47,758 nt of DNA from Bacteroidales bacterium (GTDB lineage Bacteria > Bacteroidota > Bacteroidia > Bacteroidales > P3), in NCBI GenBank assembly GCA_017501495.1, contig JAFVWV010000090.1, forward strand, positions 1 through 47,758, written 5' to 3'. Position 1 is the first letter of the stretch. Every line of letters starts with the position of its first letter. The translations under genes and the position numbers were made by a program. Of this stretch, positions 4,213 through 20,813 are shown piece by piece. The notes beneath the pieces are model-generated. The model was not told the DNA's origin, ran no database searches, and saw nothing but the letters and a program-made list of their open reading frames with translations.

Positions 4213-4607
4213 TAAATCCTTAATTCTCCTGCTCGCCTTCGGCATCGCGAAATCTTGTAAATCTTATAAATTATTCCGCCTGCGGCGGTTACGCGTAGCG
4301 CAAAATCTATAAGATCTATAGATTTCTGCCCGCAGGGCAAGGTGTCTGTTGATTTTTAAATCCTTAATCCTCCTGCTCGCCTTCGGCTTCGCGAAATCTT
4401 GTATATCTTATAAATTATTCCGCCTGCGGCGGTTACGCGTAGCGCAAAATCTATATGATTTATAGATTTCTGCCCGCAGGGCAAGGTGACTGTCGTTTTT
4501 TAAATCCTTAATCCTCCTCCTCGCCTTCGGCATCGCGAAATCTTGTAAATCTTATAAATTATTCCGCCTTCGGCGGTTACGCGTAGCGCAAAATCTATAA
4601 GATTTAG
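4213..4607 (+). repeat. 144-bp tandem repeat, about 2.7 copies
   Basis: Units begin at 4213, 4357 and 4501 with TAAATCCTTAAT, exactly 144 bases apart, and the third unit breaks off near 4607. Each contains TCGCCTTCGGC, GCGAAATCTTGTAAATCTTA, GCCTGCGGCGG, GTTACGCGTAGCGC and, in the first two, a TTTCTGCCCGCAGGGCAAGG end. There is no ORF of note. A single inverted, diverged member of the family lies at 12690-12823. This fills most of the trpS-tnaA gap, together with the flanking hairpin clusters. Confidence 0.9.
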
Positions 4608-4791: not shown

Positions 4792-6168
4792 TTAGCCGAG
4801 GCGCTTGAACTGGCAGGTGAAGTGACGCATCAGCTCGGCCTCCCAGGTGATCTCCAGACCGCGCTTGATGGTGTCGCGGCGGTCGTAGACGTTCTTCAGG
4901 GCGGCGGCTATCACGTCCATGTGGTTGTTGGTGTACACGCGGCGCGGGATGCAGAGGCGCACGAAGTCGTTGCCGCCGAAGCGGTTCTGGCGCGTCACCG
5001 GGTCGCGGTCGGCCAGCACATAGCCGATTTCGCAGGCGCGGATGCCGGCCTCGAGATACAGCTCGCAGGTCAGCGTCTGGGCCGGGAACTCTTCTTTCGG
5101 CACATTGCTCAGCACCTTGTCGCCGTCGACGAAGATGGCGTGGCCACCGGCGGGACGCTGGTAGGGGATGCCGTACTCGTCCAGCTTGTCGGCCAGGTAC
5201 TGCACCTGCTTGATGCGGGTCTCCACCATCTCAAACTCGATGTTCTCTTTCAGACCCACGGCCAGGGCGTCCATGTCGCGGCCGTTCATGCCGCCGTAGG
5301 TCAGGAAGCCCTCGAAGGGGATGCAGAAGAGCTTCGCACCCTCGTACCAGTCCTTCTTGTTGGTGGCTATGAAGCCGCCCATGTTCACCAGACCGTCTTT
5401 CTTAGCACTCATGGTCATCGAGTCGGCATAGCTGAACATCTCCAGGGCTATCTCGCGCAGGGTCTTGTTCTCGTAGCCTTTCTCGCGGGTCTTGATGAAG
5501 TAGGCGTTCTCGATGAAGCGGGCGCTGTCGACGTTGACGGGCACGCCGTATTTGTGGCAGAGTTCGCAGGTCTCGCGGATGTTCTGCATGCTGACGGGCT
5601 GGCCGCCGACGGTGTTGTTGGTCACCGTGAGCACCATGAAGGGCACATTGCCCTTGTTCTCCTGCAGCACCTTCTCCAGCTTGGCCAGGTCCACATTGCC
5701 CTTGAAGGGCACCTCGAGCTGCGTGTCGTAGGCCTCGGGCACGGTCACGTCGATGGCGAAGGCCTTGCGGCTCTCGATGTGGCCCTTGGTGGTGTCGAAG
5801 TGGGCGTTGCCGGGCACCACCATGCCGGGCTTCACCAGGTAGCTGAACAGCACGTTCTCGGCGGCGCGGCCCTGGTGCGTCGGTATCACGTACTCAAAGC
5901 CCGTCAGCTCGGTGATGGTGTCTTTCATGTGGTAGAACGAGCGGGCTCCGCCGTAGCTCTCGTCGCCCTGCATCATGGCCGCCCACTGGCGGTCGCTCAT
6001 GGCGCCCGTGCCGCTGTCGGTCAGCAGGTCGATGTACACATAGTCGCTCTTCAGCATGAAGACGTTGTTGTGGGCCTCTTTCAGCCACTGCTCGCGCTGC
6101 TCGCGAGTGCTCTTCTTGATGGGTTCAACCATCTTGATTTTCCAGCTTTCTGCAAATGGAAGTTCCAT
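4792..6168 (-). CDS. tnaA: Tryptophanase (L-tryptophan indole-lyase)
   Basis: A 458-residue PLP enzyme that cleaves tryptophan to indole, pyruvate and ammonia. The ATG at 6168 gives MELPFAESWKIKMVEPIKK, which lines up with the E. coli TnaA N-terminus; the frame stays open to 6525 but that part is the untranslated leader. Visible motifs are DLLTDSGTGAMS, the IPTHQGRAAE block, VTNNTVGGQPVS, DSARFIENAYFIK, and the PLP lysine in MSAKKDG (about residue 263). The C-terminal RHFT carries the histidine typical of tryptophanase; tyrosine phenol-lyase, the close relative, usually has Phe there. No tryptophan permease gene is adjacent. Expression is probably controlled by the leader ORF and terminator at 6287-6407. 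Confidence 0.96.
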   Translation of the reverse strand: MELPFAESWKIKMVEPIKKSTREQREQWLKEAHNNVFMLKSDYVYIDLLTDSGTGAMSDRQWAAMMQGDESYGGARSFYHMKDTITELTGFEYVIPTHQGRAAENVLFSYLVKPGMVVPGNAHFDTTKGHIESRKAFAIDVTVPEAYDTQLEVPFKGNVDLAKLEKVLQENKGNVPFMVLTVTNNTVGGQPVSMQNIRETCELCHKYGVPVNVDSARFIENAYFIKTREKGYENKTLREIALEMFSYADSMTMSAKKDGLVNMGGFIATNKKDWYEGAKLFCIPFEGFLTYGGMNGRDMDALAVGLKENIEFEMVETRIKQVQYLADKLDEYGIPYQRPAGGHAIFVDGDKVLSNVPKEEFPAQTLTCELYLEAGIRACEIGYVLADRDPVTRQNRFGGNDFVRLCIPRRVYTNNHMDVIAAALKNVYDRRDTIKRGLEITWEAELMRHFTCQFKRLG

Positions 6169-6221
6169 AATCTTAATGTTTTTTTTGTGATTGATTATTA
6201 TGATTTTTTCTGATTTTTTTC

Positions 6222-6275
6222 CGATTACTCCGATTACTCTGATTACTCTGATTACTCCGATTACTCCGATAATCA
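6222..6275 (-). repeat. 9-bp tandem repeat in the tnaA leader
   Basis: Five consecutive 9-mers of the form (C/T)GATTACTC run from 6222 to 6266, followed by a partial unit. They lie in the transcribed leader between the terminator hairpin and the tnaA ATG, about 55 bases upstream of the start codon. The copy number is a multiple of three bases per unit, but the region is outside the gene. Confidence 0.85.
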
Positions 6276-6286
6276 AAAGAAAAAGC

Positions 6287-6330
6287 AAAAGAAAAACCGC
6301 CGTCTGCCCTCTTCGGCGAGGGCGGCGGTC
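6287..6330 (-). terminator. Intrinsic terminator (attenuator) in the tnaA leader
   Basis: On the minus strand ACCGCCG (6329-6323) pairs with CGGCGGT (6302-6296). An inner CCCTC/GAGGG stem (6322-6318 with 6311-6307) has a 6-base loop, and T5-C-T4 follows (6296-6287). It begins 3 bases after the leader stop codon and ends about 120 bases before tnaA, so it would stop transcription before the gene unless prevented. Confidence 0.8.
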
Positions 6331-6332
6331 AA

Positions 6333-6407
6333 CTAAAAGCAGACGTCTCTCTTCTTGATGTTCAGGAAGAGCTTGTGGATGGTCATGTATGGGTTGGCCG
6401 TGGTCAT
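6333..6407 (-). CDS. Candidate tnaA leader peptide, 24 residues
   Basis: An ATG (6407-6405) opens 24 codons ending in TAG (6335-6333). The peptide begins MTTANPYMT and ends KKRDVCF. It starts 11 bases downstream of a strong -7 box, so the transcript is nearly leaderless. Its stop codon lies 3 bases before the left arm of an intrinsic terminator. It has the same length as E. coli TnaC but no sequence likeness that I can see: no tryptophan codon and no terminal proline. A ribosome held at the stop codon would cover the terminator's first arm and allow read-through to tnaA. The ORF, promoter and terminator are seen directly; the peptide-sensing role is inferred by analogy with TnaC. Confidence 0.6.
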   Translation of the reverse strand: MTTANPYMTIHKLFLNIKKRDVCF

Positions 6408-6418
6408 AATTCAGGCGG

Positions 6419-6449
6419 CAAAGATACAAAAAAAAATCCATCCAACAAA
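6419..6449 (-). promoter_or_regulatory. tnaA promoter
   Basis: TTTG (6449-6446), 19 bases, then TATCTTTG (6426-6419) on the minus strand: an exact match to the Bacteroidota -33/-7 pattern. The start of transcription is expected near 6412-6414, placing the 24-codon leader ORF and attenuator inside the mRNA. Confidence 0.85.
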
Positions 6450-6591
6450 AAAAACTTTTCCCGCACGACGCGGATTGCCGCTTCCCTCTCGGACACACAT
6501 CGCCGTTCCGGCTTTTTCCAAACACGAATTATCATGAATTGGACATGAATTACCATGAATTTTTACACGGTTGTCCGCGACATCGCGTTAA

Positions 6592-6685
6592 TGCCTCGGA
6601 GAGGCATGATTTTAATAACCCCAGACAAACGAAGTGCAGTCTGGGGATTGACAAACAGACCGATAACAGCGTCTCGGAGAGACGC
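6592..6685. repeat. Short-hairpin train (three types)
   Basis: TGCCTC-GGA-GAGGCA (6592-6606), CCCCAGAC/GTCTGGGG (6619-6646) and GCGTCTC-GGA-GAGACGC (6669-6685). Same order and loops as the cluster at 4623. Confidence 0.85.
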
Positions 6686-6756
6686 GCCCTCGTGTGTATG
6701 CCAGTCGCGGATTATCCTGTGAAATGACTATCCTTAGTCTGCATGCTTATGAGGGC

Positions 6757-6917
6757 GCGTCTCTCCGAGACGCTGCTTTGTATTTGTTTGATATACCCCA
6801 CACTCGAAGTGCGGGGTTATTGAAAGTTTGCCTCTTCGAGGCAATTGCTGCTTTGTATTTGTTTAATAACCCCACACTCGAAGTGCGGGGTTATTGAGAG
6901 TTTGCCTCTTCGAGGCA
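6757..6917. repeat. Short-hairpin train, reversed and partly duplicated
   Basis: GCGTCTC-TCC-GAGACGC (6757-6773) comes first. A CCCCACAC/GTGCGGGG hairpin and a TGCCTC-TTC-GAGGCA hairpin follow, and the last two then repeat (to 6917) with a near-identical linker GCTTTGTATTTGTTTAATA. The order is the reverse of 6592-6685, so the two trains form a large inverted arrangement upstream of tnaA. Confidence 0.85.
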
Positions 6918-6952
6918 ATTAAAGCCATTCGTGTCGCAGAAAACCACGGCCC

Positions 6953-7174
6953 GCTTATCGTTTTTGCCACCAGCCACAGAAGCCACCCATTCGGCACATC
7001 AACGATACATCAACGATATATCAACGATATATCAACGATTGAAATCGTCGAAATATCGTTGATATATCGTTGATGTATCGTTGATATGCGCTACCGGTAC
7101 GGGTGCAGACAGGGCAAAAACAGCCGCTTTTTAACCAATTTTAACTAAAATCACCCCCTTCCGGACGCCAAAAC
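6953..7174 (+). repeat. ~220-bp palindromic element, copy 1
   Basis: The core (6998-7085) has perfect 33-bp arms, each made of three units ATCAACGATA(C/T), around a 22-base centre. Flanks outside the palindrome are also shared with the inverted copy 3 at 44840-45059: CGTTTTTGCC and AAGCCACCCATTCGGC on the left, TTTTTAACCAATTTTAACT and CCGGACGCCAAAAC on the right. No ORF is contained. From its end to the promoter at 7371 I see no feature beyond A/T-rich DNA and a GCC-rich stretch. Confidence 0.85.
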
Positions 7175-7600: not shown

Positions 7601-10600
7601 ATGAGCAATTTAGTACTCACGAACGGAAAGAAATCATTGAACGGAACGAAACGGATACTGCTTTTGGTCGGCCTGGCCATCGCCGCGGCGCTTCCTGCGC
7701 AGGCTGCCGACTATGTGTTCATGTACAACGGCGGCTACCTTGCTGTCAACAACTCCGGTGCCGTAGTCTCCACCACCACCTTCAGCCGCTCCTGCGTCTG
7801 GACCTGCGTGTCGAACACCACCACGCTGACCGCCGCCACCCTCAGCGGAACGTCCACCTGGTTGTACACCGAGGCCAACGGCAAGCGCTATTGGCTTGTG
7901 GGCAGCAACTCAGACGGCACAAGTGTTACCGTACAAGAAGCGGCACCCGGAACGGCACGTTGGCGTTCCGACGGCACATATCTGTTCCACAGACAAAGCA
8001 ATAATTACTACCTGTATTACCGCGGCGGTTCGTGGAAAACCAGCCGGAGAAACAATGGTAACTCTTATGGAGAAAACGCCTACATGTCAGGCAATGGCAG
8101 TGGTACCGACTATCGCTCCACCACCTCCACGGTGACGACGAACAACGTGGACGAGGCCGTCATCGGCTCGCTCTCTACCCCCACCATTACGCCCAACGAG
8201 GCGCAAAGCGTCGAATACAACGGCAGCGTCAGCTACAACGCCTCGGCCACGGGCCCCACCCGCATTGTGCCGGCACACACCACCTATACCCACAACAGCA
8301 ACACCATCTACTACTACAACAACCAGACCCATACTTCTACCGATGCCTTCGCCATCAACAACCCCGAGGTTACCTACACTTGGACCCTCTCCGGTGACGG
8401 CGCCAGCGCACTGGAGCTGATGTCCACCACCGGCGAGAACACCATCGTGAAATACACCGGCAGCGCTACCGGCACCACGGCCACACTCACCGTCACCGCC
8501 AGGGTGGGTACCGAGACCCGTACGGCCTCCGTCACCATCAACGTCACACCCGTGGAGCCCACGGCCATCAGCGCCACAGGCACCACAGTGTATATGGGCA
8601 ATAGCGGCGAGGTGGTCTACACCCTCACGCCCAACTATGCCTACAACCGCGTCGCGGCCGTCTCCGGCAACTCCGACATCTTCACCGTCAGCTCGCCCGC
8701 CACGAGCGGCGCCGTGGCCATCACCCCCGTGGCTCCGGGCCAGGCCACGTTGACCCTCACGGCCCTCAACTCCAACGGCAGCAACGGTCCCAGCGTAGTG
8801 GATACCGTCATCGTGCGCGACATCTGCGCCGTGCCGCAGTTCGCCTTCGCCCAGAGCGGCAGCTCCGTGCTGGCCACCATCACCACCACTACCCCGGGTG
8901 CCACCATCCGCTACATCACCGACGGCACCGACCCCACCCCCACCACCGGCACCGTCTACTCATCAGCCCCCTTCACCGTTGCCGACGGCACCAACATCAA
9001 GGCCATTGCCGTGAAGGACGGCTACTACGACCCCTCGGCCGTGGCCACCAAGGTAGTGCGCCCCATCGACTATGTGGAGCAGGGCGTCAGCGGCGGCATC
9101 GTCACCCTCAACGACCTGGAAGACCACACCTGGACCTACTACAGCGGCGTGAGCAGCGACCTCGACGGCGGCAACTACAACACCAACTACCTCGGCAAGC
9201 TCTACAGCCCCAACCCCCGCAATGTGAAAATCACCTACAAGGCCAACGGCGGCGCCGTCTCCATCGACGAGAGCGATACGCAGTTCGTCTACTACAAGAC
9301 CCTCGAGGAGAGCGCCACTACCGGCGAGTACGCCTACCAGGTCATCAGCAACCCCTTCAGCAAACGCCCCAACGGCAAAGGCTTCGGCGGATGGAAGATC
9401 AAAGATGGTGCCGACTACATCAAAGGCTATAACGACGAGGCCACCCTGCCGCTCGACGCGGAGATTGTCTTCAACAACCTGCCCTATGCCAGCACCAACT
9501 GCGTCTCGGCGGAGATTGTCTTCGAGGCCACATGGGTGGACCTGAACAATATCACCTATGCCAGCGGCAATACCATCACCTACAATGTCTCCGGCGGCAA
9601 CTACGAGACCAACATCCTTGTGCTGAACCGCAACGTCACCGGCACCATCACCACCTCGTCGCCCGTCACCATCATGATGGTGGAACCCAACGGCAGCAGC
9701 GACTACCGTGACACCTACACCTTCACCGGCAACATCACACCCGACAACAACGGGGTTACCAAGATAGAGTTCACGCGGTGGAATAGTCAAAATACAGTAG
9801 ATGCAGATTACAACAACCTGTGGATCGGCCGTGGTATGACAACAACCAGCCGTTGCGCCAACCTGATAACAGGAGTCAATGGCACCGGGAGTGTGGCAAG
9901 CCCACAATACAGCATCAAGGTTGAAAGCGGAGTATACCAATATTTCGATTTTTATAAGGGACATAGTACATACACAGGAGGAACTGAAAACACAGGCTTT
10001 ACCGTCTCGGGAAGCAGCGCCAATGCAAGAATCACGATTGGCAATGACTATGACAGAGCCAGTGGCACCAATACCAACCTTGAATTCATCTATGGCCCCA
10101 TGTTCGGTTACTCTGGTAATTTTTCGACTAGGGGCAACCGCGACAATCTGCACACCCTGGATTTGGTTGTCAAGAGTGGCAGCATAGGCACAACCTTCTT
10201 CATGGAAAACACTAACACGGCCACCTACCTGCAGGGTGGTGCAGGATATTGCATGTATTTGAGCTCTGCTGGTAGCCAAACCAACGTTGGCGGCAGAAAT
10301 GTGGTAATAGAAGGCGGCGATATATGCTCTATCGGCGGAGGTGTCGACAGTTATAATAATGCTCCCAGCAACAACAATACTCCAAGCACAACGACACACT
10401 ACGACCGAATGGCATTGAATATACGCATCAAAGGAGGTACCATTCATGGCAATGTGTATGGCGGCGCCGCTAAATCACCCTCGGGTGGCAACAAGATAAT
10501 CGTTATGACTGGTGGTCAAGTGAAAGGATGGCTTGCTGCTGGATGCAACGGCACAGATAATGATGGAGGACAGAACTATGGAACATCCTATGTATATATA

Positions 10601-12649
10601 GGTGGCAAGGGCGCCGTTGACAGCGACGGAAGCACCAAGGTGCTTGGCTATGCTAACGGTGGCAACGTCTATGCCGCCGGAGCAGGCCGACAGGGTGCCA
10701 CCACCTGCGGCGAGATGACCTTCGGCTCCAATTTGGTTATTGCTGACGACTCCTACATCGAGCGTGGTATCTACGGCGGCGGCAACTATGGCTACGCAAA
10801 GCAAAACACCAGCATCTACATTATGGGAGGCGTTAACGAAGGACTTGCGGGAACCGTTAACACCGTAACTACCGAAGGAGGCCTTTATGGCGGCGCAAAC
10901 CAGCAGGACGGTCCCGATGTGCATATATATATGAACGGCGGCGAGATGCGCGGCGGCGTCTACGGCGGTTGCAACACCTCCGGCTCCATCGACGGCGACG
11001 TCACCATGCACATCGACGGTGGCCAGGTGGGTACCACCACCCAGGCTGCCAATATCCACGGCGGCGGATACGGCCAGGCCACGCGTGTGCTCGGCAGCGT
11101 CAACCTGACGCTGGGCAAGGCCGACTGCAGCACCATCGCCGATGGTGTGACCGTCTACGGCGACGTCTACGGCGGCAGCGCCGAAGGCCGCACCAACGGC
11201 AACAACGGCCTCACCTCCGGCGCCGTGACCAACGTCAACCTCTACCACGGCACCATCTACGGCGCCCTCTACGGCGGCGGCCTCGGCACTAAGACACCTG
11301 ACCATCCCGCCATCGTCTACGGCCCCGTGGCCGTGAAGGTCTACGGCGGCAGCGTCCGCACCAACGACGGCAGCGGCGAGAACGGCTCGGGCGGCGTCTT
11401 CGGCTGCAACAACGTCAACGGCGCCCCGCAGGGCAACGTAACGGTCGACATCTACGGCACCGACTCCGCCGAGGCAGGCCACGAGTTTGCCCTCTATGCC
11501 GTCTACGGCGGCGGCAACCGCTCCGACTACGACCGCACCCCAGTGGTTACCATCCACGGCTGCAAAAACCACATCGAGTACGTCTACGGCGGCGGCAACG
11601 CCAGTGCCGTGCGAGGCACCGACGTCACCATCTGGGGCGGCCACATAGGCAACGCCTTCGGCGGCGGCAACGGCTTCAGCGTCACCGGCAACCACACCGA
11701 CGCCTCGGCCGACCACTACAACCCCGGCGCCAACATCACCGCCGACGGCACCAACCTCACCATCCACGGCGGCACCATCGACGCCGCCTTCGGCGGCAGC
11801 AACCAGTGGGGCTACATCAACAGCACCATCACCGTCACCGTCGAGGAGCAGACCGAGTCCGCCAACGACCCCTGCACCGGGTCGGCCTATAAACCTTGCG
11901 ACAACCTCATCGTCGAGCTCTACGGCGGCGGCAACCAGGCCCCGGCCGTGACCCGGGAGGATGCCTACATCAGCCCCGACGTCAACATCAACTCCTGCAA
12001 CATGGAGATCACCAACCTCTTCGGCGGCGCCAAGAACGCCAACCACGGCGCCAACATCAACCTCGAGGTCACCAAGGGCAAGTTCGAGAACGTCTTCGGC
12101 GGCAACAACCTGGGCGGCACCATCACCGGCAACGTCACCCTCACCCTCAAGGGCGGCACCATGACCAACGCCTTCGGCGGCAACAACATGGGCGGCTCCA
12201 TCACGGGCACCATCACGGTTCTCGTCGACTCCACGGGCGAATGCCCGCTGAAGGTGGACAACGTCTACGGCGGCGGCAACCAGGCAGCCTACGCCCCCAA
12301 CGACCCCACGGCGGCGACGCCCACGGTCAACTTCGTCAACGGCACGGTGCGCAACGCCGTCTTCGGCGGCGGCCTCGGCGACGCAGCCAAAATCACGGCC
12401 AACCCCACCGTCAACATCGGCGGCACCGGCAGCAAGCATGCCGTAGTGGGCGGCACCCGTATTAACGGCACCAAGGGCGACGGCAACGTCTACGGCGGCG
12501 GCTCGCAGGCCGACGTCCTCAAGGACGGCGCTGGCACCGGCAACACCAGCGTCACCCTCAGCGGCCACGCCACGGTGAAGGGCAACGTCTACGGCGGCGG
12601 CAACGAAGCCAATGTAGAGGGCAACTCGTCGGTGAAATTGGAAGAATAA
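7601..12649 (+). CDS. Giant secreted VYGGG-repeat protein 1
   Basis: A 1682-residue protein with a Sec signal peptide (basic start, LLLVGLAIAAALPAQA, cleavage after about residue 35). It has an N-terminal domain (about 36-150) with the SCVW motif, similar to giant 3. Ig/BIG2-like beta domains follow (about 195-405). Next come a chitobiase C-terminal-like domain (about 410-487; PGATIRYITDGTDPTP) and an InlB/Flg_new-like segment (about 540-610; YKANGG...GFGGWK). A long glycine-rich repeat region runs from about 950 to the end, with rungs of 20-30 residues ending VYGGGN or VFGGGN. The repeats suggest a right-handed beta-solenoid stalk (inference). There is no T9SS sorting domain; the protein ends on a repeat. 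DNA from about 9770 to 10900 is visibly richer in A/T than the rest. A surface or adhesin role is likely; the ligand is unknown. Confidence 0.85.
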   Translation: MSNLVLTNGKKSLNGTKRILLLVGLAIAAALPAQAADYVFMYNGGYLAVNNSGAVVSTTTFSRSCVWTCVSNTTTLTAATLSGTSTWLYTEANGKRYWLVGSNSDGTSVTVQEAAPGTARWRSDGTYLFHRQSNNYYLYYRGGSWKTSRRNNGNSYGENAYMSGNGSGTDYRSTTSTVTTNNVDEAVIGSLSTPTITPNEAQSVEYNGSVSYNASATGPTRIVPAHTTYTHNSNTIYYYNNQTHTSTDAFAINNPEVTYTWTLSGDGASALELMSTTGENTIVKYTGSATGTTATLTVTARVGTETRTASVTINVTPVEPTAISATGTTVYMGNSGEVVYTLTPNYAYNRVAAVSGNSDIFTVSSPATSGAVAITPVAPGQATLTLTALNSNGSNGPSVVDTVIVRDICAVPQFAFAQSGSSVLATITTTTPGATIRYITDGTDPTPTTGTVYSSAPFTVADGTNIKAIAVKDGYYDPSAVATKVVRPIDYVEQGVSGGIVTLNDLEDHTWTYYSGVSSDLDGGNYNTNYLGKLYSPNPRNVKITYKANGGAVSIDESDTQFVYYKTLEESATTGEYAYQVISNPFSKRPNGKGFGGWKIKDGADYIKGYNDEATLPLDAEIVFNNLPYASTNCVSAEIVFEATWVDLNNITYASGNTITYNVSGGNYETNILVLNRNVTGTITTSSPVTIMMVEPNGSSDYRDTYTFTGNITPDNNGVTKIEFTRWNSQNTVDADYNNLWIGRGMTTTSRCANLITGVNGTGSVASPQYSIKVESGVYQYFDFYKGHSTYTGGTENTGFTVSGSSANARITIGNDYDRASGTNTNLEFIYGPMFGYSGNFSTRGNRDNLHTLDLVVKSGSIGTTFFMENTNTATYLQGGAGYCMYLSSAGSQTNVGGRNVVIEGGDICSIGGGVDSYNNAPSNNNTPSTTTHYDRMALNIRIKGGTIHGNVYGGAAKSPSGGNKIIVMTGGQVKGWLAAGCNGTDNDGGQNYGTSYVYIGGKGAVDSDGSTKVLGYANGGNVYAAGAGRQGATTCGEMTFGSNLVIADDSYIERGIYGGGNYGYAKQNTSIYIMGGVNEGLAGTVNTVTTEGGLYGGANQQDGPDVHIYMNGGEMRGGVYGGCNTSGSIDGDVTMHIDGGQVGTTTQAANIHGGGYGQATRVLGSVNLTLGKADCSTIADGVTVYGDVYGGSAEGRTNGNNGLTSGAVTNVNLYHGTIYGALYGGGLGTKTPDHPAIVYGPVAVKVYGGSVRTNDGSGENGSGGVFGCNNVNGAPQGNVTVDIYGTDSAEAGHEFALYAVYGGGNRSDYDRTPVVTIHGCKNHIEYVYGGGNASAVRGTDVTIWGGHIGNAFGGGNGFSVTGNHTDASADHYNPGANITADGTNLTIHGGTIDAAFGGSNQWGYINSTITVTVEEQTESANDPCTGSAYKPCDNLIVELYGGGNQAPAVTREDAYISPDVNINSCNMEITNLFGGAKNANHGANINLEVTKGKFENVFGGNNLGGTITGNVTLTLKGGTMTNAFGGNNMGGSITGTITVLVDSTGECPLKVDNVYGGGNQAAYAPNDPTAATPTVNFVNGTVRNAVFGGGLGDAAKITANPTVNIGGTGSKHAVVGGTRINGTKGDGNVYGGGSQADVLKDGAGTGNTSVTLSGHATVKGNVYGGGNEANVEGNSSVKLEE

Positions 12650-12845: not shown

Positions 12846-13154
12846 ATGAAACGGAAAGAAATAACAGACACACTCAGCCGGGAGTTCAGCAAGCTGCCTC
12901 TCGACATCGAGGTGTGGCTCTACGGCAGCGAGGCCCGCGGCGACGCACGTCCCGACTCGGACATCGACCTGCTGGTTCTTTTCAACAAGCCGGAAGTCAG
13001 ATACGCCGACAGGGACAAGATTTTCGAGGTAACATATCCGATAGAAATGGAAACAGGTGTCATCATCAGCCCTTTTATCCTGCCCAAGTCCCAGTGGGAG
13101 TCGCGTATGACCCCTTTCCGTATGAATGTTATGAATGAAGGAATACGGCTATGA
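12846..13154 (+). CDS. MNT-type minimal nucleotidyltransferase (antitoxin of an MNT-HEPN pair)
   Basis: A 102-residue DNA polymerase beta-like minimal nucleotidyltransferase. The signature YGSEARGDARPDSDIDLL (about residues 26-43) supplies the G-S motif and the D-x-D metal-binding pair. In characterised MNT-HEPN (type VII) systems the MNT protein neutralises its HEPN partner by transferring AMP to it. The stop codon overlaps the start of the HEPN gene by ATGA (13151-13154), typical translational coupling of these pairs. It lies 196 bases after giant 1 and just after a repeat of the 144-bp family. I see no clear TAnnTTTG promoter in front, so read-through from upstream is possible. Confidence 0.88.
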   Translation: MKRKEITDTLSREFSKLPLDIEVWLYGSEARGDARPDSDIDLLVLFNKPEVRYADRDKIFEVTYPIEMETGVIISPFILPKSQWESRMTPFRMNVMNEGIRL

Positions 13155-13576
13155 GCGAATTGAACCAACAGCAGAGAACCGACATTGTGCGTTATCGTAT
13201 GGAGAACGCACGCAACACCCTGGCAGAAGTCGAGTTCCAGATAAACAACGGCTTCTACAATACTGCGGTGAACCGCATGTACTATGCCTGCTACTACGCT
13301 GTGTGTGCTCTGCTTATAGCCAACAAGATACAGACCAAGTCACACGACGGCGCCAGGCAGATGTTCAGCCTGCACTTCGTGAAAACAGGAATTGTGTCGA
13401 AAGAATACGGAAGGTTTTACAGCAACCTGTTTGAGGAACGCACTACGGGAGACTATGAAGACCTTTTCGACCACGACCTTGCGTCGTGCAAGGAACTTTA
13501 CCCGATGGTGAAAGAATTTGTTGCAACACTGCTTCACATAGGAGAAGAGTGGCTTAAGGATAACCAAGTGAAATAA
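13151..13576 (+). CDS. HEPN-domain protein (toxin of an MNT-HEPN pair)
   Basis: A 141-residue all-helical HEPN protein (PF05168 type). Family marks are NRMYYACYYAVCALL (about 37-51), TKSHDGARQMF (about 59-69) and the following HFVKTG. An R-x5-H arrangement (RQMFSLH) fits the HEPN RNase motif. The C-terminal part has the ERTTGDYED sequence commonly conserved in this family. HEPN toxins cleave RNA and are restrained by their MNT partner. It overlaps the MNT gene by four bases, and only 7 bases separate its stop from the start of giant 2, so all three may be on one transcript. Toxicity is inferred from family, not shown. Confidence 0.85.
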   Translation: MSELNQQQRTDIVRYRMENARNTLAEVEFQINNGFYNTAVNRMYYACYYAVCALLIANKIQTKSHDGARQMFSLHFVKTGIVSKEYGRFYSNLFEERTTGDYEDLFDHDLASCKELYPMVKEFVATLLHIGEEWLKDNQVK

Positions 13577-13583
13577 TAATACA

Positions 13584-16500
13584 ATGAAACATACTAATAG
13601 TTATACTATGAAACATACTTTTGCAGGCAAGGCCGCAGCGGTGGCTTTGCTGGCCATGCTGGGCTTGGGCGGCAATGCCCAGGCGCAGATCGTTGTCCAT
13701 GGCGACGTCTACGGCGCCGGCAAGGGTGTATATCCCGGCGTGGATGTGGCCCGCGTGCACGGTAACTCCACCGTGGTGATGAGCGCCGGCACCGTAGACA
13801 GTAACGTCTACGGCGGTGGCGAGTTGGGCGCCGTCAACGGCAACACCGACGTGGCCATCTCCGGCACCGCCCATGTGGGAGGCAACGACCTCACCAGTTA
13901 CAATGGCTTCGTCTTCGGCGGCGGCTCCGGCACCATCCAAGACCCCGGCTATGCCAATGTCAAGGGCAACTCCCATGTGGCCATCAGCGGCGGCTATGTG
14001 CACAACACCGTCTTTGGCGGCGGCGAGCTGGCCTCCGTGGGCACCTTTACCTTGGCTGCATCTGCCGATGCCGCGAACGACATCGTGGTCGGCGAGCCCG
14101 TCAACTGCGCCAGTGGTACCGGTCGCAGCCTGGTGGAGATCAGCGGTGGCCAGATAGGCCATAAGGACGCCACCTTGCGCGTGGATATCGGCTATGTCTT
14201 CGGTGCCGGTATGGGTGTCTACACCGACCCCCATGCTGCCAACGAACCGGCCCCCTCGGCCGACAACGCCCGTTTCGGCTATGTCAACACCGCCGAGGTG
14301 CAAGTCAGCGGCTCGGCCTTCATCGTGGGTGCCGTGTGGGGTGGCAGCGAGAACGGCCAGGTGCTCGACAGCTGCGGCGTCATCGTCAGCGGCGGCCAGA
14401 TTGGCAACGGCTATGACTGGACGAACAAAGAGGGTAAAGGCCTCTATACTGCTGCCAACTGGGACGAAGCCGTTGCAGCCGTCAAGGCCCAGGATGCTAC
14501 GCGCATCAACACCATTGCCGCTGCTATGCCGGAGTGCATGCACTGGAAATATGGCTACGATACCATCATCAACGGAGATTCTACCAAGCACTACCTCCCC
14601 TACGACCGCTATGCCAATGAAACCGGCGACACCACAGCCTCCTACAACCCCGGCGACGGCCACACCTTCTTCGGCAATGTCTTCGGCGGCGGCTCGGGCT
14701 ACTACCCCTATGCCACCGACAATAGAGGCACGGGCGGCGAGTTCACCACCCAGTTCTACAAATTCCAGGGTCGTGTGCGCGGCAATACCTATGTGGAGAT
14801 CACCGGCGGACATATCCTGACCTCGGTCTATGGCGGCTGCGAGTATGCCGACGTGTTGGGCGACTGCCGCGTGGTGATGACCGGCGGCACCCTCGGCCTC
14901 CCGCGAACCATCGACTCCATCACCGACCACCCCGTCACCAGCTACCTCTTCGGCGCCGGCAAGGGTGACCAGCGTACCGAGTTCAATATGCGTACCAATG
15001 TGCAGAATGTCAACGTGAAGGTCAGCGGCGGTCTCATCTTCGGTTCCGTCTTCGGCGGCGGCAAGGATGGTCACGTGCTGGGCGACGCCAAGGTGACCAT
15101 CGACAGCGCTGCCTGGGTAGGCACCTGGGGCACCTCGTATGTCGACGGCAATATCTTCGGCGGCGGCCGCGGATTCGGCGGCACGGCCTACACGGCCGGC
15201 TCCATCGGCGGCAACGTCGAAGTCAATATCAACAACGACACCGTGGCGGGCACCCCCGTGAGACCCACCATGCTCGGCTCCGTCTACGGTGGTGGCCGTC
15301 TGGCCTCTGTGGGCTCCTACTTTGTGGCCGTGGGTGACCCCAATTATAGCCAGCTGCAGGACGGCGACGACCACGGCAATATCAAGATTAACATCACCGG
15401 CGGCACCATCGGCAACCTCAGAGAGTTCTCCCACCCAGTCTTCGATCCCGCCGCGAGTTACAGCGTGGGCGACGTGGTGGCCTACCAGAACCAGATGTAC
15501 CGTTTCACCAGCGCACATCCCGCCGGCGCATGGAACCAAGCCGATGTCACCGACATCGTGCACACCACCGGCGGCAACGTCTTCGGCTCGAGCATGGGAC
15601 GTCTGTTCAAGCTCGGCGCCACCGACGAGACCGACTCCAACAGCTTCCTGCGCATCTGGCCCGGTATGGCCAAGTGCAAGAACACCGAAATCAACATCAG
15701 CGGCGATGCCACCATCTATAGTAATGTCTATGGCGGCGGCGAGCTGGGCTATGTGATGAAGGACACCAAGGTGACCATCGACGGCAGCCAGGTGACCATC
15801 GGTCACGGTGTGGCTACCGGCACCACCGACGCCTGCTACCTGGGCTCCGTCTATGGCGGCGGCTACGGCAGCGACAACATCACCCCACACATCAACGACA
15901 CAGCGAGCATCACCTCCACCTCCGGCTTTGTTTCGGCGGCCATGCATGCCGGCCGCGTCTACGGCAACACCGAGGTGGAATTGAAGAACGGTCACATCCT
16001 GGGCAACATCTATGGTGGCGGCGAGCTGGCCTCCGTGGGACGCCGCTGGAAGGACATGACCTACGCCTACGACCCCTCAAACCCCTATAAATTCCAGCCT
16101 CCCTACAACGGCACCGCCGCGACCTACAACTACGAGGTGAACGGCGTAACCTACACCTCCTACGGCTACAGCGCCAATGTGGGCAACACCAAGGTGACCG
16201 TCAGCGGCGGCAAGGTGGGCGAGGTGGACAATGTCACCGTCGGCACCCACCGTGTGGCAGGCCACTCGACCGGCCGCAAGGGTTCCGTCTTCGGCGGCAG
16301 CAAGGGCCGCCCAGGCTATTTTGATACAATTAATAATAAAGACTACGGCTTCCACTACACCCGCATGGCCTATGTCGACAAGACGCAGGTCATCATCAAG
16401 GGCGGTCAGATTGCCGCCTCGGTCTTCGGCGGCGGCGAGAACGGCCACGTGCGTTACGACGCCACCGTCACCATGACCGACGGCACCGTGGGTCTGGAAC

Positions 16501-19500
16501 TCACTGCAGGGGAGAAAGCCCTCGACGCGAATGGCGAAGCCCTTGTAGATATATATCACGGCAACGTCTACGGCGGCGGCCGCGGTATCGATATGACCCA
16601 GAGCGGCTACCTGGGCGAGGCTTCCGGCCAGGTGTTCGGCAACACCACGGTCGACATCAGCGGCGGCACGGTGCGCCACCACGTCTTCGGCGGCGGCTCC
16701 ATTGCCTCGGTGGGCACCTACGTCGCCTACCCCATCGTCCCGGGCGACCACGCCGAAGCCTTGACCGGCAAGGCCACCGTCACCATCCACGGCGGTGTGA
16801 TTGGCTCCGACGGTATGAACAACGGCTTTGTCTACGGCTCGGGCCGCGGTGTGGCTTATACCGGTTCCGACTATGCCCACAAGGCCTTCGTCAACAACAC
16901 CGAAGTGAATATCCAGACCGGCGCCGATGTGCGTGGCTCGGTCTTCGGCGGCGGCGCCAACGGCCACGTGATGACCGACACCAAGGTGAACATCAGCGGC
17001 GGCACCATCGGCTCGCCCATCAACAGCACCGACTGGACGCTACCCGTTGCCTATACACCCACAACGCCGGGGGCTGCAGACATGGTGGGCACCGAATGGG
17101 TGAAATACCCCACCAACGACCCCTCCGACCCCAACTATAACGACTATATGTCCCAGCTCGGCGAGAGCGCTGTGACCCACTTCCACGGCAACGTCTACGG
17201 CGGCGGCCGCGGTGTGGACCGCCACGACGGCAACTTCAGCACCACCGCCGGCCGCGTGTACGGCAACACCAATGTCGACGTCAGCGGCGGCATCATCTAC
17301 CACAACGTCTATGGCGGCGGCTCGATGGCCTCGGTGGGCTACTATAACGAGGTGCCCATCACGCCCCACTCCACCATACTTAGCGGCGGCATCGCCACCG
17401 TCACCATCCGTGGCGGCCAAATCGGCACCACGGGCCACAACAACGGCCACGTCTTCGGCTCGAGCCGTGGTATGGCCGGCAGCGAATATTCCCACTTCGC
17501 CTTCACCGAGGACACCTATGTCAACATCAAGGATGGCGCCGACATCCGCGGCTCGGTCTTCGGCTCGGGCGAGAACGGCCACGTGCTCAACAACACCTAT
17601 GTCACCATGACCGGCGGCAAGGTGGGTCGCGACCTTACGGTGAAGGCCACCCTTCTGGACGACACCACCGAACTGGTCACCGGTGAAGCCTGCACCGAAG
17701 AGGCGGGCGCCGACGCGTCCGTCATCTTCCGTGGCAACGTCTACGGCGGCGGCCGCGGTGTGGACCGCCACAACGGCAAGCTCAGCCTCAGCGCCGGCAC
17801 CGTCTACGGCAACACCCACGTCGACATCAGCGGCGGCACCGTCACCCACAACGTCTACGGCGGCGGCTCGATGGCCTCGGTGGGCTCCACCAAGTACAAG
17901 GACGCCGAAGGCAACTACACCTCCTATGAGCCTGTCCGCAACGGGACATTGGAACCCCCCGTCTTTTACGACACGGTAGGCAAACCGGAGCGCTCGCACC
18001 GCTACAAGGACTCCCATGGCGAATACACCTCCCGCATCCCTGTGGAGACCCCCTGTACCTACAAGTATAAGACCAGCGCCGATGCTACCGAGTACACGAG
18101 CGATACGAGCGTGGCGGACCCCGTGACCGGTGACTATTACGACTCTATCAAATACCGCTGGATGAATCCCACTACCGGCAACTATACCGAAACGAGCTTA
18201 ACCTATTATGACACTGTCGGCGTCGATACCATTACCGGCATGGCCATCGTCACCATCAGTTCCAATGCCATCATCGGCAACGCCGGCGAATTTGTCGTCG
18301 ACCGCAAGGGCTTCAACAACGGCCGCGTCTTCGGCGCCGGCCGCGGTATGGCCGGTGGCGCATATGCCGCCCGCGCCAACGTCTACAACACCATCGTCAC
18401 CATCAATGGCGGCACGGTCAACGGCTCCGTCTTCGGCGGCGGCGAGAACGGCCACGTGCTGCATAACACCCGCGTCACCGTCAACGACGGCACCATCGGC
18501 CACAACATGAACGCCTCTTATGCCGCTGTCGAAGGTGCCTTCGGAAGCAGCATGCCTGAGATGATTCCGGTCATGAAGAGCCGTATGGCCAACGTCGGCA
18601 ACGTCTACGGTGCCGGCCGCGGATGCGACCTGGACCATGACGGGACCTATTCCATGAGCGCCGGCTACGTGCGCGGCAAGACCGTCGTCACCGTCAACGG
18701 CGGCACCATCCACCGCAACGTCTACGGTGGCGGTTCGATGGCCATTGTGGGCGACTACGGCCTCAATGGCACCGAAGACCACATCCAAGACGCCAACTCC
18801 GGTTTGGCCACCGTCAACATCCACTCCTCTGTGGGCGACTCGAACGACAACGTGGGCTTCGGCGGCAACGTCTTCGGCTCGAGCCGCGGACGCGCCAACG
18901 ACCCCGCCAACCCCGATTTCGACTTCGCCGATATGGCCTATGCCTTCAAGACCCAGGTCAACATCGGTAACGATGCCGGCGACGAGGTTCTCACCGTCTA
19001 CCGCAATGTCTACGGCGGCGGCGAAAGCGGCCACGTCGACTACGGCGGCACCACCGTCAATATCAAGAGCGGCACCGTCAAGGGCAACGTCTTCGGCGGC
19101 GGCCGCGGCAGCTCCCTCTCGCCGACGGCAGGCATCGTCGACGGACCCACGCAGGTCAACATCGGCACCGAAGCTCAGCTGACCAGCGACATTGCGAACA
19201 CCGTGGTCGTCGAAGGCCACGTCTTCGGCGGCAACGACGCAGGCTCGTCGCCACTCGGCATCATGAACGTCGACATCTGGCGCACAGCCCACAGCGGCAA
19301 CAACGTCTACCCCACCCTCACGTCCGAGACCGACACGGCGGCGCTGCTCAACCAGCCCGACTCAAGCTACTACGCCATCAGCGGCGTCTACGGCGGCGGC
19401 AACGAGGCTTCGGTGCTCACGGGCGACGTGAGCATAGACGCTCCCGCCTGGGCCGGCAAAGAAAGCATGCTCAACACCAAATACATCGACCAGCGCCTCA

Positions 19501-20813
19501 ACGTCGCGTCATGGCCCGGCGGCACGAGCCGTCTCTCGAAGGTGACCATCCACGAATGCTCGGAGAACACCGTGATGTACGTCTACGGCGGCGGCCGCGC
19601 GGCCGACACCTACGAGAATGAGGTGCTCATCGAGGGCGGACGCGTCTACCGCGCCTTCGCCGGCGGCGACGGCCACACCGGCACCAAGTCCGACGTCGTC
19701 ACCGACGCCTCGATCACCGTCGAGGGCGGCCTGGTCTACCAAGTCTTCGGCGGCTCCAACACCAACGGTATCGTGAAAGGCGTGGCCAGCGTCAACCTCG
19801 ACCCGCAGGACAACTGCGAACTGGTCAACCACAGCATCTTCGGCGGCGGCAACGAAGCCCCCGGCGGCTCGACGGTGGTCACCATCCCCTGCGGCACCAC
19901 AGGCATCAACGACGTCTACGGCGGCGCCAACGAAGCCCTCATCACCGGCGACGTGATACTCAACATCCTCGGCGGCTCGATGAACCGCGTCTTCGGCGGC
20001 TCGCGCAACGCCGAAATCGACGGCAACGTCACCGTCAACATCACCGGCGGCAGCATCGACACCGTCTTCGGCGGCAACAACGTCGACGGCAACATCACCG
20101 GCCAGATCGACGTCAACATCGACTGGGGCAACAACACCTGCACCGACCCGCTGTACATAGGCACCGTCTTCGGCGGCGGCAACGAGGCTCGCTACACGCC
20201 CTCGTCGGCAGCCCTCGTCTCGCCCTCGGTCAACATCGTCAAAGCCACCATCAGCGAAGACATCTTCGGCGGCGGCAACGGCACCACCCGCACCGCCACG
20301 AGCGACGCCCAGGTGACGGCCAACCCCTCGGTGCTCGTAGGCGCACCGCGCTTTGCCGACAAAACCGGCGCCACACTGGCTCCGGCCGTCGACTGCGACA
20401 CCGTGACCGTCATGGGCAGCATCTTCGGCGGCGGCAACGCCTCACCCACCATCGGCAACACCACCGTCGTGGTGCGCGGCGAGAAGACCCTGGTGCAGCA
20501 GAGCGTCTACGGCGCCGGCAACGCAGCCACCGCAGGCTACGCCACCGCCACCGACACCAGCACCACCGACGTCCACATCGGCTACTACGCCGGCACCACC
20601 GAGCCGGTCGTCGTCAGCGTCAGCGACGGCAAACTCAGCGCCACCTGCGCCACCCCGGGCGCCGTGATACGCTACACCGTCGACGGCACCGATCCCGCTG
20701 TGGGCGAGGTGTATAGCGCACCCATACCCGTCAGCTCGGGCAAGACCGTCAAGCTCCGCGCCACCCGCGGCGGCTACGAGCCCTCGGCACTGACGACCCA
20801 CACCGAGCCGTAA
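13584..20813 (+). CDS. Giant secreted VYGGG-repeat protein 2
   Basis: 2409 residues from the ATG at 13584; a second ATG at 13608 begins with the same 12 bases (ATGAAACATACT) and gives a more typical signal peptide (MKHTFAGKAAAVALLAMLG, cleaved after AQA). Almost the whole protein is VYGGG/VFGGG repeat, starting within 10 residues of the signal peptide. A higher-order unit of roughly 200 residues recurs about four times between 16550 and 19100 (NVYGGGRGVDRH..., NVYGGGSMASVG, FGSSRGMAG, SGENGHVL). Near residues 618-655 a short CBM5/12-like segment is embedded (YSVGDVVAYQNQMYRF). The last ~75 residues are a chitobiase C-terminal-like domain (PGAVIRYTVDGTDP). No T9SS sorting domain. Probably a beta-solenoid surface protein. 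Confidence 0.85.
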   Translation: MKHTNSYTMKHTFAGKAAAVALLAMLGLGGNAQAQIVVHGDVYGAGKGVYPGVDVARVHGNSTVVMSAGTVDSNVYGGGELGAVNGNTDVAISGTAHVGGNDLTSYNGFVFGGGSGTIQDPGYANVKGNSHVAISGGYVHNTVFGGGELASVGTFTLAASADAANDIVVGEPVNCASGTGRSLVEISGGQIGHKDATLRVDIGYVFGAGMGVYTDPHAANEPAPSADNARFGYVNTAEVQVSGSAFIVGAVWGGSENGQVLDSCGVIVSGGQIGNGYDWTNKEGKGLYTAANWDEAVAAVKAQDATRINTIAAAMPECMHWKYGYDTIINGDSTKHYLPYDRYANETGDTTASYNPGDGHTFFGNVFGGGSGYYPYATDNRGTGGEFTTQFYKFQGRVRGNTYVEITGGHILTSVYGGCEYADVLGDCRVVMTGGTLGLPRTIDSITDHPVTSYLFGAGKGDQRTEFNMRTNVQNVNVKVSGGLIFGSVFGGGKDGHVLGDAKVTIDSAAWVGTWGTSYVDGNIFGGGRGFGGTAYTAGSIGGNVEVNINNDTVAGTPVRPTMLGSVYGGGRLASVGSYFVAVGDPNYSQLQDGDDHGNIKINITGGTIGNLREFSHPVFDPAASYSVGDVVAYQNQMYRFTSAHPAGAWNQADVTDIVHTTGGNVFGSSMGRLFKLGATDETDSNSFLRIWPGMAKCKNTEINISGDATIYSNVYGGGELGYVMKDTKVTIDGSQVTIGHGVATGTTDACYLGSVYGGGYGSDNITPHINDTASITSTSGFVSAAMHAGRVYGNTEVELKNGHILGNIYGGGELASVGRRWKDMTYAYDPSNPYKFQPPYNGTAATYNYEVNGVTYTSYGYSANVGNTKVTVSGGKVGEVDNVTVGTHRVAGHSTGRKGSVFGGSKGRPGYFDTINNKDYGFHYTRMAYVDKTQVIIKGGQIAASVFGGGENGHVRYDATVTMTDGTVGLELTAGEKALDANGEALVDIYHGNVYGGGRGIDMTQSGYLGEASGQVFGNTTVDISGGTVRHHVFGGGSIASVGTYVAYPIVPGDHAEALTGKATVTIHGGVIGSDGMNNGFVYGSGRGVAYTGSDYAHKAFVNNTEVNIQTGADVRGSVFGGGANGHVMTDTKVNISGGTIGSPINSTDWTLPVAYTPTTPGAADMVGTEWVKYPTNDPSDPNYNDYMSQLGESAVTHFHGNVYGGGRGVDRHDGNFSTTAGRVYGNTNVDVSGGIIYHNVYGGGSMASVGYYNEVPITPHSTILSGGIATVTIRGGQIGTTGHNNGHVFGSSRGMAGSEYSHFAFTEDTYVNIKDGADIRGSVFGSGENGHVLNNTYVTMTGGKVGRDLTVKATLLDDTTELVTGEACTEEAGADASVIFRGNVYGGGRGVDRHNGKLSLSAGTVYGNTHVDISGGTVTHNVYGGGSMASVGSTKYKDAEGNYTSYEPVRNGTLEPPVFYDTVGKPERSHRYKDSHGEYTSRIPVETPCTYKYKTSADATEYTSDTSVADPVTGDYYDSIKYRWMNPTTGNYTETSLTYYDTVGVDTITGMAIVTISSNAIIGNAGEFVVDRKGFNNGRVFGAGRGMAGGAYAARANVYNTIVTINGGTVNGSVFGGGENGHVLHNTRVTVNDGTIGHNMNASYAAVEGAFGSSMPEMIPVMKSRMANVGNVYGAGRGCDLDHDGTYSMSAGYVRGKTVVTVNGGTIHRNVYGGGSMAIVGDYGLNGTEDHIQDANSGLATVNIHSSVGDSNDNVGFGGNVFGSSRGRANDPANPDFDFADMAYAFKTQVNIGNDAGDEVLTVYRNVYGGGESGHVDYGGTTVNIKSGTVKGNVFGGGRGSSLSPTAGIVDGPTQVNIGTEAQLTSDIANTVVVEGHVFGGNDAGSSPLGIMNVDIWRTAHSGNNVYPTLTSETDTAALLNQPDSSYYAISGVYGGGNEASVLTGDVSIDAPAWAGKESMLNTKYIDQRLNVASWPGGTSRLSKVTIHECSENTVMYVYGGGRAADTYENEVLIEGGRVYRAFAGGDGHTGTKSDVVTDASITVEGGLVYQVFGGSNTNGIVKGVASVNLDPQDNCELVNHSIFGGGNEAPGGSTVVTIPCGTTGINDVYGGANEALITGDVILNILGGSMNRVFGGSRNAEIDGNVTVNITGGSIDTVFGGNNVDGNITGQIDVNIDWGNNTCTDPLYIGTVFGGGNEARYTPSSAALVSPSVNIVKATISEDIFGGGNGTTRTATSDAQVTANPSVLVGAPRFADKTGATLAPAVDCDTVTVMGSIFGGGNASPTIGNTTVVVRGEKTLVQQSVYGAGNAATAGYATATDTSTTDVHIGYYAGTTEPVVVSVSDGKLSATCATPGAVIRYTVDGTDPAVGEVYSAPIPVSSGKTVKLRATRGGYEPSALTTHTEP

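Follow-up and report, generated by a model that had tools for sequence, protein, structure and literature searches.

A conserved leader peptide upstream of tryptophanase genes in Bacteroidales as a candidate nascent-peptide switch

Known leader systems and the layout of the locus

Indole from bacterial tryptophanase (TnaA) is a major signal in the gut, and Bacteroidales are among its makers. The closest described system is the tnaCAB operon of Escherichia coli, whose leader peptide TnaC (MNILHICVTSKWFNIDNKIVDHRP) relies on Trp12, Asp16, and Pro24, according to two studies (PMC8429421, PMC10941005). The Bacteroidales locus described here resembles tnaCAB in that a short ORF immediately precedes tnaA on the same strand, and in that both peptides hold an aromatic-x-N-I-charged stretch (W-F-N-I-D in TnaC, F-L-N-I-K in the present leader), a likeness that may reflect convergence or chance. 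In our reading the two would also be alike in outcome, with an arrested ribosome leading to transcription of tnaA. They differ in that the Bacteroidales leader lacks Trp12, Asp16, and Pro24 and has a core that ends 1 to 11 residues before the stop codon, in that the spacer between leader and tnaA is mostly 57 to 160 nt rather than the 220 nt of E. coli, and in that the locus examined here carries an intrinsic terminator. A nascent chain that responds to a small molecule and regulates the gene downstream is a principle also shared with SpeFL, whose ligand is ornithine, and with the drug-induced erm leaders; to our knowledge these peptides are unrelated to the Bacteroidales leader.

In Bacteroides thetaiotaomicron, short ORFs within long 5′ UTRs have been noted as reminiscent of attenuation leaders (PMC7366714), and neither tnaA nor tryptophan occurs in the main text of that study. 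A survey of tnaA genes used tnaC as an exclusion term (PMC8537960). Among the matches listed from the open-access literature, there was no description of the leader or of how tnaA is switched on in Bacteroidales.

The stretch of DNA that was analyzed, hereafter called the window, comprises 47,758 nucleotides of contig JAFVWV010000090.1 from a Bacteroidales genome assembly (GCA_017501495.1). Direct reading of its minus strand gives the order Bacteroidota promoter, 24-codon ORF, intrinsic terminator, 9-bp tandem repeat, and tnaA (Table 1). The original prediction of a promoter, a 24-codon ORF ending in TAG, and a strong bulged hairpin with a T run upstream of a same-strand tnaA was thus confirmed, with further support from the fold of the hairpin and from the score of the tnaA product, which exceeds its equivalog cut-off. 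The hairpin has a predicted energy of −23.7 kcal/mol (z = −3.84), and none of 200 shuffled sequences folded as well; a longer stretch that takes in the ORF stands out less (z = −1.79, with 10 of 200 shuffles as good). The output of a generic terminator scan does not contain the bulged hairpin, and no Rfam family reaches its gathering threshold in the window, sub-threshold matches within positions 6100 to 6520 having E values of 0.57 or worse.

The leader ORF adjoins the promoter match and is read in a frame different from that of tnaA, with which it presumably shares a transcript. The sequence CGUCUGC within the ORF (positions 6345 to 6339) is the full complement of a segment of the terminator 3′ arm, which makes an antiterminator pairing possible; the complementarity was noticed in the window only and, at seven bases, is not clearly above chance.

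Table 1. Positions of the promoter, leader, terminator, and tnaA features in the window
Feature	Position	Strand	Basis and remarks
Promoter −33 element, TTTG	6446..6449	−	Direct reading; 19 nt 5′ of the −7 element
Promoter −7 element, TATCTTTG; Bacteroidota type TAnnTTTG	6419..6426	−	Direct reading; 11 nt, then ATG
Leader ORF, MTTANPYMTIHKLFLNIKKRDVCF; 24 codons	6333..6407	−	ATG 6407–6405; stop codon TAG 6335–6333
Core F-L-N-I-K-K-R-D-V-C in the leader	6339..6368	−	Residue and codon tables; Asp codon 6347–6345
Bulged GC-rich terminator hairpin (predicted)	6295..6330	−	Onset is the third base past the stop codon; 5′ arm 17 nt past the first Asp-codon base
U tract, UUUUUCUUUU, 3′ of the hairpin	6287..6296	−	Direct reading; first two U residues paired in the model
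GCAGACG in the terminator 3′ arm	6301..6307	−	Spotted by eye
Tandem repeat of a 9-bp unit (5.7 copies), separating the terminator from tnaA	6220..6270	−	Repeat detection
tnaA, tryptophanase; presumed regulated gene	4792..6168	−	NF053783.1, 879.4 bits against a cut-off of 750 (NCBIfam equivalog)

Several other elements were observed in the neighborhood. An inverted repeat at 6994 to 7089, between the tnaA promoter and the next gene, is built from 11-bp units such as ATCAACGATAT and has 47-nt arms that are 94% complementary. Direct and inverted copies of small, repeated hairpin units (CCCCACACTCGAAGTGCGGGG, TGCCTC..GAGGCA) are located at 6592 to 6920, 5′ of the tnaA promoter, and a 144-bp tandem repeat of 2.7 copies occupies 4213 to 4606, between tnaA and a downstream trpS gene on the same strand. 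Two very long repetitive proteins, rich in VYGGG/VFGGG-like repeats and with Fn3-associated and chitobiase C-terminal-like domains, are encoded at 7601 to 12649 and 13584 to 20813. A gene with a nucleotidyltransferase domain, followed by one with a HEPN domain, lies at 12846 to 13576, a pair that we take to have the make-up of an MNT-HEPN toxin-antitoxin system. In several relatives of the window leader, short repeats of other kinds were seen by eye near the place of the 9-bp repeat, and the spacer between leader and tnaA, with its repeats, may vary quickly.

Distribution and conservation of the leader peptide

Of 393 Bacteroidales genomes, 284 contain a TnaA match with an E value of 1e-80 or better, a loose cut under which other lyases may be included. 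The 133 tnaA loci used below comprise 130 of the first 133 among the 150 matches listed, with G413, G511, and G575 left out as lying near contig ends, and three of the last 17 (G443, G448, and G458), which are included because the strict pattern described below had found them. At 88 of these 133 loci, an ORF encoding N[IVL]KxRD lies no more than 400 nt upstream of tnaA, whereas the antisense strand gives none and shuffled sequences give 0.05 per 133 loci; with the three loci added through the pattern removed, the core is present at 85 of 130. Six further loci have K-x-R-D-x-[FY] with the N replaced, which brings the count to 94 of 133. The core is absent at the other 39 loci, and tnaA can therefore do without the leader. 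Leaders are present in 43 of the 62 families sampled, most of which are represented by one to five genomes.

The consensus core is [FY]-x-N-[IVL]-K-x-R-D-x-[FY]. A conserved motif had been anticipated upstream of tnaA and was found there, in a form other than the expected (K)KR(D/E)xCF; the window leader itself carries C at the last core position. In keeping with an ORF that is not a chance frame, the Bacteroidota −7 element TAnnTTTG is present no more than 45 nt upstream of an in-frame ATG at 168 of 186 leaders, against 4 in a control window. Distances of 10 to 12 and 17 to 19 nt between this element and the ATG are the commonest, and 87 of the 168 leaders also have TTG or TTTG 14 to 26 nt upstream of the −7 box.

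A second search, with the TnaA protein, gave a similar picture at closer range: among the best 80 of at least 589 confirmed stretches, 75 have upstream DNA and 47 of those have a core ORF. In our reading, some of the other 28 have a promoter-like site near tnaA and others a repeat-rich gene directly upstream, and a search of these 28 loci at nucleotide level for a core followed closely by a stop codon gave no match elsewhere in them. We also used a strict pattern, that is, degenerate DNA for [FY]LN[IV]K[KE]RD in which the Arg codon admits Ser as well. This pattern matched 77 of 190 genomes of the window family, once in each, and its reverse matched none; a TnaA match lies downstream at all 30 loci retrieved from the 77 genomes. 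Order-wide it matched 51 of 393 Bacteroidales genomes, with two matches for the reversed pattern, and 43 of the 51 matches are directly upstream of tnaA.

At class level, the strict pattern matched only five of 395 genomes sampled, a set in which 380 genomes belong to other orders. Two of these are Bacteroidales, two matches are located inside long frames (L169 and L170), and one is a true tnaA leader (L167), the single such case among the 380 genomes of other orders under this pattern. By this pattern, a leader general to the class is not supported.

Conservation acts at the level of the encoded residues. The 189 tnaA-linked leaders from all sets comprise 168 distinct nucleotide cores of 10 codons and 84 distinct peptide cores, and third codon positions vary across the ten core codons with entropies of 0.84 to 1.82 bits. 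The core Arg is encoded by AGA, AGG, CGC, CGT, CGG, or CGA (112 leaders). Although N, K, R, and D are constant in the core, those letters were demanded by the search; the residue two places after Asp was free to vary, and 84 of 88 leaders, or 177 of 189 in the larger set, have F or Y there. Because third positions and nucleotide cores vary while the peptide is kept, the comparisons indicate that selection is acting on the peptide. Conservation of the reading frame in relatives had been set beforehand as a test of the prediction, and the frame is indeed kept at the peptide level. Taken together, these comparisons mark the ORF as real and the leader as conserved across the order Bacteroidales, which goes beyond the original prediction.

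Leaders can be very short. The peptide at L078 (MRKFANIKERDPYI) has 14 residues, with a stop one codon upstream that closes the frame and a TAnnTTTG element nearby; that at L260 (MNYLNIKDRDAFLC) also has 14 residues when counted from the only in-frame ATG, with an earlier TTG start possible. Between 1 and 11 residues follow the core Asp, and Pro is the last residue in one leader of 189.

These features set the leader apart from TnaC. A motif of W12, D16, P24, and stop, which detects TnaC itself, occurs at none of the 133 Bacteroidales tnaA loci, so the proposed kinship to TnaC is rejected. A relaxed form (W...D.......P*) was found only at L193, where the new core is present too. On sequence grounds the Bacteroidales leader is best described as an analogue of TnaC and not as a TnaC.

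The same leader counts bear on classical attenuation of the trp type, in which slow decoding of certain codons during a shortage of charged tRNA would determine the outcome. Leader, hairpin, and terminator are fitting parts for such a mechanism, in the window as in the trp and his attenuators, where a leader ORF and then an intrinsic terminator likewise precede the first gene, and aromatic codons (F or Y) are kept at two core positions. However, runs of control codons, those for tryptophan included, are absent among the leaders listed, and Trp occurs in just 7 of 189 leaders taken from the innermost ATG, or in 4 of 163 taken from the ATG behind the −7 box, counts that rule out attenuation by codon runs. 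In addition, the use of six core Arg codons would call on different tRNAs, what is kept is the peptide and not the terminator, and control by starvation fits biosynthesis rather than a catabolic gene. We therefore regard the trp-type explanation as very improbable.

As a separate observation, TnaA of the window is 92 to 95% identical to that of genomes in three other families (f2, f81, and f101; L178–L188 and G000) and 80 to 82% identical to that of another genus of its own family. Because identity is higher across families than within the family, these values suggest horizontal transfer of tnaA, in several cases in f81 and f101 together with the leader.

Placement of the hairpin and readout of the leader

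In the original prediction the intrinsic terminator was the heart of the mechanism. Terminator-like hairpins of −6 kcal/mol or better are enriched in the window family, where they occur in 24 of 70 spacers compared with 3.7 in shuffled sequences, and the window hairpin has the lowest energy of the 70. Outside the family they occur near chance, in 7 of 81 spacers against 2.0 shuffled; one of the seven is of the window type (L183, counted within the 81) and is the strongest there. Leaderless controls gave 1 of 45 against 0.7. A GC-rich hairpin with a U tract between leader and gene is thus present in the window and absent as a feature of the whole group, and a terminator conserved order-wide is ruled out. 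Among the 23 other leaders nearest to that of the window by sequence, most are followed by longer hairpins located further on, several at D+25 (positions given as D+n are counted in nucleotides past the first base of the Asp codon). Since enrichment is confined to the window family and hairpins differ even among the nearest relatives, the intrinsic terminator is, as judged from these predictions, a lineage-specific readout, and its central role did not hold.

It is accordingly worth asking whether the nascent peptide is read out everywhere through Rho or RNA decay, with the window hairpin a secondary local feature. This would agree with the lack of order-wide terminators, and with the many distant spacers that are 50 to 80 nt in length and little structured (median minimum free energy of −7.2 kcal/mol); moreover, TnaC of E. 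coli uses Rho. Rut-like composition is weak. C exceeds G in 70 of 87 order-wide spacers, but the same excess is common in leaderless controls (34 of 45 5′ regions). YC dimers number 12.0 per 100 nt in the spacers against 6.9 in the leaderless 5′ regions. The 88 leaders that entered the composition analysis include eight window-type loci. Given also the very strong hairpin and U tract of the window and the enrichment of such hairpins in its family, a readout by Rho or decay at every locus seems unlikely, and we prefer a reading in which the window terminator itself responds to the arrested ribosome.

The point at which that ribosome would be held had been predicted to be the stop codon. We examined this by measuring hairpin onset, defined as the start of the first stem of at least five pairs, in 83 representatives of 95 window-family spacers; six of the 83 have no qualifying stem. 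For stop codons located 9, 12, 15, 18, 27, and 30 nt past the start of the Asp codon, the median onsets are 16, 21, 25, 20, 19, and 20, respectively, and regression of onset against stop offset gives a slope of −0.07 (SE 0.18; n = 74, onsets up to 45). The standard deviation of onset is 7.4 nt when measured from Asp and 8.9 nt from the stop codon, or 12.3 and 13.9 nt, respectively, under another hairpin definition. These models argue that the family keeps its hairpin at a distance set by the Arg-Asp core and not by the stop codon, with a large scatter; together with the variable number of residues past Asp, they speak against stalling at the stop codon.

Onset falls within D+15 to D+26 in 53 of the 83 family representatives, compared with 22.0 in shuffled sequences, and in 37 of 67 against 17.1 once a subclade sharing a hairpin motif is removed. 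The interval was picked on these family data, and related sequences make the tests non-independent; in an order-wide set that was not used for its choice, with the eight window-type loci left out, 27 of 80 leaders have an onset within it against 11.9 in shuffled sequences, where the maximum of 30 shuffles is 18. Members of the subclade share a homologous hairpin (GCCATAGG..CCTATGGC), and the stop codon lies inside it in some of them and ahead of it in the rest. In this alignment 92.6% of cells are paired and 14 two-sided changes are seen against 4.0 in shuffles, with none of 500 shuffles as high, in 15 sequences whose choice for one common hairpin motif biases them toward covariation. Two of five covariation measures are weak, as 23 of 500 shuffles are as high for pairs with a two-sided change and 116 of 500 for further pair types.

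As judged from toeprints in general, a ribosome whose P site holds the Asp residue or one of the next two extends to approximately D+16 to D+22. Comparison of this reach with the onset interval suggests that the hairpin, where present, tends to lie at the leading edge of a ribosome stalled on the core. The group therefore combines a kept peptide, rather than a kept RNA, with an RNA element placed at a set distance downstream, although the distance scatters and part of the leaders lack the element. As regards the original interpretation overall, a leader peptide kept in relatives and an intrinsic terminator before tnaA in the window are retained, whereas descent from TnaC, a stop-codon stall, and the central place of the terminator are not.

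The proposed signal and mechanism, and their significance

The same leader also precedes genes other than tnaA. In four genomes (L171, L172, L288, and L289) it lies before operons with indolepyruvate-oxidoreductase (IOR)-like or acyl-CoA-ligase genes, and it was found upstream of the gene for the IOR-like 2-oxoacid oxidoreductase at 3 of the 6 loci with that protein in 198 genomes. At L172 it is followed by an operon that joins genes for an acyl-CoA-ligase-like and an IOR-like protein with a third gene, whose product looks like an aminotransferase, with no family match at the threshold used. A wider aromatic amino-acid regulon is possible, and is less than certain because the IOR and ligase proteins score below their NCBIfam equivalog cut-offs.

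The eight strict matches that are not beside tnaA are of several kinds. Two (L113 and L118) are at IOR and ligase operons, and one (L127) is at a caprolactamase/hydantoinase-like gene with a peptide identical to that of tnaA leader L128; the L128 peptide precedes such a gene on the minus strand of L173, in another genome of the same genus. Matches L112 and L130 encode KKSD and are taken as chance, L153 and L154 have no ORF of 90 residues downstream within the fetched stretch, and L163 is not leader-like.

An input common to tryptophanase and the arylpyruvate route would be an aromatic amino acid, most likely tryptophan, and on this basis we infer that tryptophan is probably the ligand. An alternative is a leader without tryptophan sensing, one that sets the level of tnaA by arresting constitutively or on another trigger (for example, indole, another aromatic amino acid, or the general state of translation) or by serving reinitiation. 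It has been proposed that leader genes can increase translation of the gene that follows them (PMC4833913). However, linkage of the leader to both tnaA and IOR-like operons points to a tryptophan-related cue, and the constraint on its sequence would appear to exceed what reinitiation needs. We consider such a leader quite unlikely.

Our preferred reading, which we judge reasonably probable as a whole, is that a nascent-peptide switch governs aromatic amino-acid breakdown, with arrest on the core and, in the window, antitermination. That the leader peptide controls tnaA in cis is highly probable. Transcription would start just 5′ of the leader ORF, and a ribosome would translate the leader. At high levels of the ligand (most likely free L-tryptophan), a chain ending in [FY]xN[IVL]KxRDx[FY] would arrest the ribosome, and such arrest on the core is likely. 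It would occur at one constant position within the Arg-Asp-x-aromatic core, with the front of the ribosome near D+16 to D+22, where the hairpin begins.

In the window, the predicted terminator has its onset at D+17, and the arrested ribosome would spoil its first arm, so that tnaA is transcribed. A ribosome held at the residue two places after Asp would cover the first six bases of the hairpin, and the hairpin that remains would no longer adjoin the U tract. Without arrest, the ribosome would be released at the stop codon close by, and the terminator would form. We place antitermination at this terminator at slightly better than even. In most other Bacteroidales examined, the spacer lacks a terminator-like hairpin, and the same peptide would therefore be read out in a different manner, with Rho-dependent termination as a first guess.

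The chances appear evenly balanced that Bacteroidales have independently evolved their own way of sensing tryptophan (or an aromatic amino acid) on the ribosome, with a leader of as few as 14 residues that is little longer than the core, an internal Arg-Asp-x-aromatic arrest site, control of both tnaA and the IOR/acyl-CoA-ligase route, and varied readouts that include the intrinsic terminator of the window. A conserved leader of few residues offers a directly testable switch for tnaA. If tryptophan is sensed with no Trp in the peptide, the leader would be a second and simpler solution to the problem that TnaC solves, and, if this is true, comparison with TnaC would show what a ribosome requires to catch a free amino acid.
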